Positions 5,331-44,588 of a DNA stretch of 45,709 bases are shown here, piece after piece. The position numbers and the translations under genes were made by a program. Positions within the stretch are counted from its first letter, which is position 1. The number at the start of each line of letters is the position of its first letter. The stretch spans positions 1 to 45,709 of the forward strand of contig JAQYAI010000061.1 in the NCBI GenBank assembly GCA_029227655.1, read 5' to 3'. Source of the stretch: a bacterium (GTDB lineage: Bacteria; Bacillota; Clostridia; Lachnospirales; Lachnospiraceae). The notes below the pieces were generated by a model. That model worked only from the letters and a program-made list of their open reading frames with translations, did no database searches and had not been told where the DNA came from.

Positions 5331-6407
5331 ATGGACAAGAAGAAGGTAGTTGTGGGATTATCCGGAGGTGTGGACTCGTCGGTGGCGGCATATTTACTGA
5401 AAGAACAAGGATATGACGTAATCGGAGTCACCATGCAGATCTGGCAGGAAGAAGAGATTCTCACACAGGAAGAAAATGGTGGCTGTTGTGGAATTACGGC
5501 GGTGGAGGATGCAAGAAGAGTGGCAGCAACTTTGGACATTCCATATTATGTGATGAATTTCAGGAAAGAGTTTCAGAAAGAGGTTATTGACTATTTTGTG
5601 AATGAATATCTGAATGGGCGGACACCGAATCCGTGTATTGCCTGTAACAGATATGTGAAATGGGAAGCACTGCTTGCAAGAAGTATGGAGATTGGTGCAG
5701 ACTATATTGCTACAGGGCATTATGCTCAGATTGATCAGCTTCCGAATGGAAGATATGCAATCAAGCATTCGAAGACAAAAGCGAAAGACCAGACATATGC
5801 CCTTTATAATCTGACGCAGGAGCAGTTAAAAAGAACACTGATGCCGGTGGGCGCATATACCAAAGAAGAAATCCGGGGAATTGCAGAACAAATTGGTCTT
5901 CAGACTGCACATAAACCGGATAGTCAGGATATCTGTTTTGTGCCGGATGGAGACTATGCGTCCTTTATCGAAAGAGAGTGCAGCTGCAAGATTCCAGAAG
6001 GGAATTTTGTGTCATTGGATGGAAAGATTTTAGGCAAGCATAAAGGCATTACACACTATACGGTAGGGCAGAGAAAAGGACTTGGACTGTCACTTGGACA
6101 CCCGGCATTTGTACTGGAAATACGTCCGGAGACGAATGAAGTCGTAATCGGCTCTAACGAAGATTCTATGACTTGTGAAGTGAGAGCGAATAAACTGAAT
6201 CTTATGTCCAGAGAAGAGATTGAAGATGGTATGAGAGTATTTGCAAAAATCCGTTACAATCACAAAGGCGCATGGTGTACAGTCAGGAAAACAGGTCAAG
6301 ATGAAATTCTCTGTATATTCGAAGAACCACAGCGCGCGGTTACACCGGGACAGGCTCTTGTTATGTATGAGGGTGATTACGTGTTAGGTGGAGGAACAAT
6401 ACTCTAG
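5331..6407 (+). CDS. mnmA: tRNA-specific 2-thiouridylase MnmA
   Basis: [47 protein letters not shown]. Confidence 0.97.
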
Positions 6408-12496: not shown

Positions 12497-12576
12497 TAAT
12501 ATTATACTCGCGTCTTTACTACTTGATAAAAATAAAAGTGGATTGGTATAAGTTCGCATTAATAGAATTTGTAGAG

Positions 12577-12692
12577 ATTTTCACAAACTCTTGCAACTGT
12601 GACCAGAATCATGCAAAATAATGGCGTTGGTCGGTAGGTGAATTTGTTCCTGCACAACGGCGCTATTGTTTTTTTGAATGAAAGCATAGAAG
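12577..12692 (+). repeat. Leader/terminator repeat, copy 1
   Basis: About 92% identical by eye to 15399-15512; TTGCAA, 17 bp, CAAAAT, then hairpin with T-run. Confidence 0.85.
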
Positions 12693-15336: not shown

Positions 15337-15383
15337 AGATTCTCTTTTGTTTTTTCTCTTGAAGCGCATGGCTGAGCTGTCAC
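15337..15383 (-). repeat. Degenerate remnant of the dispersed palindromic element
   Basis: Reverse complement GTGACAGCTCAGCCATGCGCTTCAAGAG matches the left end of the full copies (GTAACAGTTCAGCCATGCGCTTCAAAGAG). Confidence 0.6.
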
Positions 15384-15398
15384 CAAGATATTGATGAA

Positions 15399-15512
15399 AT
15401 TTTCACAAACTCTTGCAACTGTAACCAGAATCATGTAAAATAATAGCGTTGGTGGTAGGTGTATTTGTTCCTGCACATCGGCGCTATTGTTTTTTGAAGA
15501 AAAGCATAGAAG
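15399..15512 (+). promoter_or_regulatory. gpmI leader: sigmaA-type promoter directly followed by hairpin terminator (repeat copy 2)
   Basis: TTGCAA (15413-15418), 17 bp, TAAAAT (15436-15441); hairpin AATAGCG (15442-15448) ... CGCTATT (15482-15488) + GTTTTTT. Confidence 0.7.
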
Positions 15513-28955: not shown

Positions 28956-29107
28956 ATGTAATACCTCGTAATATATAAATATGAATGTGTGAAAAATGAA
29001 AGTGTTTCTTCCTATTAATAATCAAGAATGATCAAGTTTTTATTTTCACTATGGAATTGTAAACCATGAAAAAAAAAAAGGCAAGTAAAAAAACAGTAAA
29101 GAATTTT

Positions 29108-29258
29108 GTAACAGTTCAGCCATGCGCTTCGAATAGAAATAAAACAACAGAGAGCTTGCTCACATAGTTGTTTTATTTCTTTTTGAAGCATATGGCGCTC
29201 TGCCGAAGCGAGAAGTAGCGCGGGCGCGCGGATTCGACCTGCATGGCTGAACTGTTAC
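29108..29258. repeat. Dispersed palindromic element, full copy 1
   Basis: Perfect 18-bp terminal inverted repeats GTAACAGTTCAGCCATGC / GCATGGCTGAACTGTTAC with nested internal stems; homologous to 42158-42309. Confidence 0.92.
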
Positions 29259-29350
29259 GGAATTTGAAAGATTTATGGATGGAATTGACAAAGCAATTTG
29301 CAGAGGATAAAATAACAACAACAGTCTTAAATAGAAGTGGAGAATAGTAA

Positions 29351-42157: not shown

Positions 42158-42309
42158 GTAACAGTTCAGCCATGCGCTTCAAAGAGAAAGAAAACAACTG
42201 AGAGTTTACTCGCAAAAGTTGTTTTCTTTCTTTTGAAGCATATGGCGCTCTGCCGAAGCGAGAAGTAGCTGCATCGCAGCGGATTCGAGCTGCATGGCTG
42301 AACTGTTAC
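42158..42309. repeat. Dispersed palindromic element, full copy 2
   Basis: Same 18-bp TIRs as copy 1; internal stem GAAAGAAAACAAC/GTTGTTTTCTTTC and GCTGC-ATC-GCAGC. Confidence 0.92.
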
Positions 42310-44539: not shown

Positions 44540-44588
44540 GTAACAGTTCAGCTATGCAGCGAATTCGAGCTGCATGCTGAACTGTTAT
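44540..44588. repeat. Minimal copy of the dispersed palindromic element
   Basis: GTAACAGTTCAGC-T-ATGCAGC-GAATTCGA-GCTGCAT-GCTGAACTGTTAT; termini and apical GCAGC/GCTGC retained, core deleted. Confidence 0.85.

Follow-up and report, generated by a model that had tools for sequence, protein, structure and literature searches.

The ISBst12 group of the IS66 family is characterized by a single ORF, and one of its members, ISDge4, has been caught transposing; its ends read GTAACTGCTCAGCA and it is associated with an 8-bp repeat (PMC12898284). Among structured RNAs, the closest described class is Clostridiales-1 (RF01699), which was listed by Weinberg et al. 2010, with no link to mobile elements in the main text (PMC2864571). 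The element reported here resembles bacterial MITEs in being short, non-coding, TIR-bounded, multicopy, intergenic, and non-autonomous, and it differs from them in its conserved three-hairpin interior, whose arms covary across many genera. No description of this MITE family was found in a search limited to published papers. A likely parent can now be named for a repeat that is common in gut Lachnospiraceae and is otherwise met by annotation or RNA-motif searches as unexplained palindromes.

The window, meaning the whole 45,709-nt stretch of Lachnospiraceae DNA analysed, carries two full copies of an element that is very probably a MITE with an IS66-type parent. Copy 1 (29108..29258, + strand) is 151 bp long with its CTTG tip on the + strand, and copy 2 (42158..42309, + strand) is 152 bp long, situated 7 bp past the stop codon of mgtE, with ackA downstream. 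An earlier sequence-only reading had described a dispersed palindrome of about 151 bp with exactly these limits for copy 1, and had suggested mapping its copy number and insertion sites. In the own genome (a 2.2-Mb draft in 196 contigs, estimated to be 82% complete), 17 copies of near-full length were found, with 81-100% identity to copy 1, together with partial and TIR-only matches; a simple survey placed most copies between ORFs, with no orientation bias relative to the neighbouring genes (7 vs 7). The reading was also right that the element encodes no protein; no ORF of at least 120 aa overlaps copy 1 or copy 2. In G002 and G004, both of the same genus, mgtE and ackA are adjacent and the element is absent from the interval, which represents an empty site for copy 2.

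Smaller pieces are present as well. A solo remnant of the TIR/H1 end lies at 15341..15386 (- strand), and a derivative of about 50 bp, consisting of two TIRs and the AATTCGAGCTGC stem, lies upstream of plsX (44540..44588, + strand). The latter was considered as a widespread unit and rejected, because among 397 genomes a single further copy (at most 3 mismatches) was detected, and that copy is in the own genome (G000:C173:111-160). The window also contains a direct repeat of about 110 bp in two copies (12564-12674 and 15386-15495; 88-95% identity), the second of them upstream of a phosphoglycerate mutase gene. At gathering thresholds, a tRNA was the sole Rfam match in the whole window.

The left TIR of copy 1, GTAACAGTTCAGCCATGC (29108..29125, + strand, 18 bp), has its exact reverse complement at the right end (29241..29258, - strand), and the 18-bp TIRs of copies 1 and 2 are identical, as had been claimed. 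Among 299 genomes of the family that were sampled, 57 contain the TIR 14-mer GTAACAGTTCAGCC, with up to 77 sites per strand; the reversed pattern, used as a control, gave one match in total. In a 17-mer scan of named genomes, Lachnospiraceae predominate among the matches listed. Copy 1 is flanked by decayed 8-bp target duplications, agaatttt on the left (29100..29107) and ggaatttg on the right (29259..29266), and in both window copies the decay has reached 6/8. The flanks of the own 17 copies were 68% identical at the 8-bp register (register 0), compared to 44% for a cross-copy null, with 8/8 agreement in four copies. For 80 TIR pairs collected from other, mostly Lachnospiraceae, genomes, the left and right 8-mers were 81% identical (35% in the null); identity across these related TIR-bounded elements peaked solely at length 8, and reached at least 7/8 in 56 of the 80. 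Several elements of 29-50 bp (L055:1486-1514, L140:7594-7625, L053:1473-1514, L061:1501-1542, and L152:7269-7318) amount to hardly more than back-to-back TIRs with perfect 8-bp duplications; either they moved at that size, or they were shortened post-insertion.

The duplications bear directly on the affinity proposed in the sequence-only reading, which was to REP/BIME-like or MITE-like families. An element of the REP/BIME type, mobilized by the Y1 transposase associated with REPs, would likewise be palindromic, intergenic, and multicopy. However, REP/BIME elements have no TIRs with target duplications, and depend on another transposase; REP elements are not known to leave target duplications of such a kind. 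Because the 8-bp target duplications and the TIRs are those of an IS66-family insertion sequence, which has a DDE transposase, REP/BIME with a Y1 transposase is almost certainly the wrong model, and the MITE half of the proposal is the one retained.

A candidate parent was recognized through its ends. Roseburia inulinivorans DSM 16841 contains a TIR-bounded element of 1829 bp (L155 81-1909), which matches the MITE TIR exactly and encodes a 485-aa protein with a PF03050 domain (E 5e-19). Six close homologues that have a visible end (one each in G036, G238, G308, and G321, and two in G373; two left and four right ends) also carry the exact TIR, giving 7 of 7 when R. inulinivorans is included. 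A less similar homologue in G047 (66% over a fragment) ends in GTAACTATTCAGCC, and among the more distant homologues every end had at least 3 mismatches to the TIR. The end GTAACTATTCAGCC is also that of ISGka4 on pHTA426, which shows 2/14 differences from the TIR and 8/8 duplications, and a Deinococcus relative ends in GTAACTGCTCAGCA, with an 8/8 duplication. The window element has in common with the ISBst12 group, represented by ISGka4 and ISDge4, the TIR form GTAAC..TTCAGC, the 8-bp duplication, and, in the presumed partner, a single-ORF DDE_Tnp_IS66 transposase lying between TIRs like its own; it is unlike the group in being transposase-free and about ten times shorter.

The R. inulinivorans transposase scored 132.9 against the NCBIfam IS66 model (cut-off 180), and its element is without a clear target duplication (2/8); none of the Lachnospiraceae genomes examined yielded a complete autonomous copy flanked by duplications. 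Little similarity between the MITE and the insertion sequence was noticed outside the TIR. A partner in the same genome is no requirement for a MITE, and no homologue of the L155-type transposase was found in the own 82%-complete draft, so that these may be relic copies, unless the gene sits in the missing part. The sole IS66 element of the own genome (L031, G000:C14) looks intact and has TnpA/TnpB/TnpC-like ORFs; it was rejected as the parent, since its TIRs differ (GTAAGCGATTC; GTAAGCGATTCAAAACAAGGCG). A 2170-bp TIR pair (L153) was rejected as an insertion sequence because its ORFs are not transposase-like, and viral contigs yielded no relative of the transposase.

With TIRs, a duplication of fixed length, dispersed transposase-free copies, and an empty site in relatives, the element has the attributes of a MITE, and both its ISBst12/IS66 parentage and its mobility are well supported. 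We propose that the 14-18 bp at its ends belong to an ISBst12-group insertion sequence of the IS66 family, and that the single DDE transposase of the latter would act in trans on such ends, leaving 8-bp target duplications, with insertion mostly into A+T-rich intergenic DNA. The L155-type transposase presumably moved the copies in the own genome, and transposition may still go on.

The interior between the TIRs is predicted to form three hairpins. In copy 1 these are H1 (29126..29189, + strand), with the tip GAG-CTTG-CTC and arms that covary among copies and genera, the short H2 (TGGCGCTCTGCCG; 29193..29205, + strand), and H3 (29207..29240, + strand), whose internal loops resemble a module of Clostridiales-1 RNA. 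Copies 1 and 2 folded much better than their shuffles (z -10.3 and -9.5), and the folding energy of the copies was better kept than in neutrally mutated copies (mean z -3.2, relative to a partly circular null in which the ancestor is the consensus). Three covarying stems had been inferred in the reading from copies 1 and 2. The changes are real, but comparison of the 17 copies revealed their weight to be unequal: several copies share the subfamily difference AAATAAA/TTTATTT versus AAAGAAA/TTTCTTT, whereas GAGT..ACTC occurs in copy 2 alone and GCGCG..CGCGC in copy 1 alone, where the remaining copies have CTGC..GCAG. Other copies show private paired changes as well, in the long stem of L016 and L017 and even within the TIR (GTACC/GGTAC in L013). 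Within a copy, the left arm is closer to the right arm than either is to the arms of other copies (p 5e-5 for the outer stem, p < 5e-5 for the long stem). In one related element, L157:1558-1744, the tip of H1 has flipped with respect to H2, as though it had been inverted across its own arms.

Covariation is weaker in the own subfamily than in other genera, because the own copies differ little. Unusually, a 185-188 bp subfamily and others, found in several genera, keep to one order (TIR stem, H1 tipped by G-CTTG-C, H2, H3, TIR), and their H1 arms differ widely. For 17 elements of other genera, 93.5% of pair cells were standard, double changes occurred in 21/21 H1 pairs, and the covariation score was 0.49, compared to 0.16 for shuffled and at most 0.10 for slid alignments. 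When tree-simulated alignments served as the null, 7 of 31 pairs reached significance, and of all 3321 column pairs the top five were structural; this test was performed with our own script modelled on R-scape, not with R-scape itself. A covariance model of the other-genera elements, containing no own-genome sequence, recovered copy 1 at 29122-29206 (46.5 bits, E 5.5e-8) and copy 2 at 42172-42256 (39.5 bits), and no further match in the window had an E of 10 or less. These findings support the maintenance of the fold through compensatory change, which the sequence-only reading had put forward with significant covariation over many copies as its check.

As to why the fold is kept, that reading had offered function or palindrome-correcting gene conversion, a choice that can now be narrowed. 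When the elements were oriented by their tips, the arm mismatches comprised 35 G.U and 10 A.C (p 2.5e-4), or 24 and 6 when counted as unique events (p 0.0014), both p-values being inflated by relatedness; the own 17 copies alone provide too few independent events for this polarity. Since strand-symmetric DNA processes predict equality, the excess of G.U on one strand points to the folding of one strand, either RNA or single-stranded DNA. Selection on one folded strand is slightly preferred as the reason for the fold, and that strand would be RNA, which is likelier than single-stranded DNA. Two observations weigh against an RNA role: the copies have no orientation bias relative to neighbouring genes, and no promoter-like site was detected inside copy 1, the flanking ones pointing away from it. 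A cis-regulatory RNA was rejected, given the lack of orientation bias relative to genes.

One alternative is that the fold is functionless, the element being a passive MITE whose paired changes stem solely from DNA-level palindrome correction, through templated repair or hairpin-mediated conversion. The paired changes private to single copies, in the TIR of L013 and in the long stem of L016 and L017, would be explained in this way, as would the flipped tip of L157 and the absence of orientation bias. The G.U excess, however, is unexpected under strand-symmetric correction, and across genera the G-CTTG-C tip and the layout persist, in contrast to the unconserved arms. As the whole explanation, palindrome correction is conceivable and on the doubtful side; the private paired changes and the flipped hairpin suggest that DNA-level palindrome events occur too. 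Most likely, selection on one folded strand would keep the three-hairpin interior between the ends, and palindrome-templated changes may also help the arms to change in step. The family offers a naturally occurring collection of fast-evolving hairpins, on which a G.U/A.C test can separate selection on the fold from palindrome correction.

The element also resembles Clostridiales-1 RNA. The whole length of copy 1 matched RF01699 (36.2 bits, E 1e-6), below the gathering score of 48, and L189, from another genome, matched at 31.2 bits (E 0.006); L150 gave no match. The MITE and Clostridiales-1 have in common an outer stem, a CTTG-tipped hairpin, the internal-loop module GAGAA(A)GTAGC..GCGGATT(T)CGA, and their occurrence in the same bacterial group. 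Four true Clostridiales-1 copies are present in the own genome, and their outer ends differ from those of the MITE; the class has TGATGCC..GGCATCA at its outer ends, and a target duplication was not seen by eye. In the reverse direction, true Clostridiales-1 went undetected by the MITE model of other genera (best 14.4 bits, E 1.4). Membership in Clostridiales-1 was not accepted, the match being under gathering and not reciprocal, and a kinship of the MITE interior with this class is plausible. Matches to miRNA families were put down to chance similarity with long hairpins.

The shared module and tip, the full-length match of copy 1, the match of L189, and the presence of true Clostridiales-1 in the same genome would be accommodated if the interior were a divergent Clostridiales-1 RNA, transcribed and trans-acting, that was captured between IS66-type ends. 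With the score under gathering, L150 unmatched, and true Clostridiales-1 missed by the MITE model, such a capture appears rather unlikely. The broader proposition, in which a functional structured RNA with kinship to Clostridiales-1 is carried by a Lachnospiraceae superfamily of IS66-type MITEs and so travels as a transposable element, is judged unlikelier still. If the link holds, an orphan RNA class would become testable as mobile-element cargo. Two arrangements of Clostridiales-1 itself were also observed. In L141:6071-6409, a Clostridiales-1 RNA (120 bits, 6187-6344) lies inside a 187-bp-type element, forming a composite of 339 bp, and in L280 (G000:C98), directly after a true Clostridiales-1 copy, its ends recur in a second, short version (TGATGCCAGGGTCA..GGCATCA).
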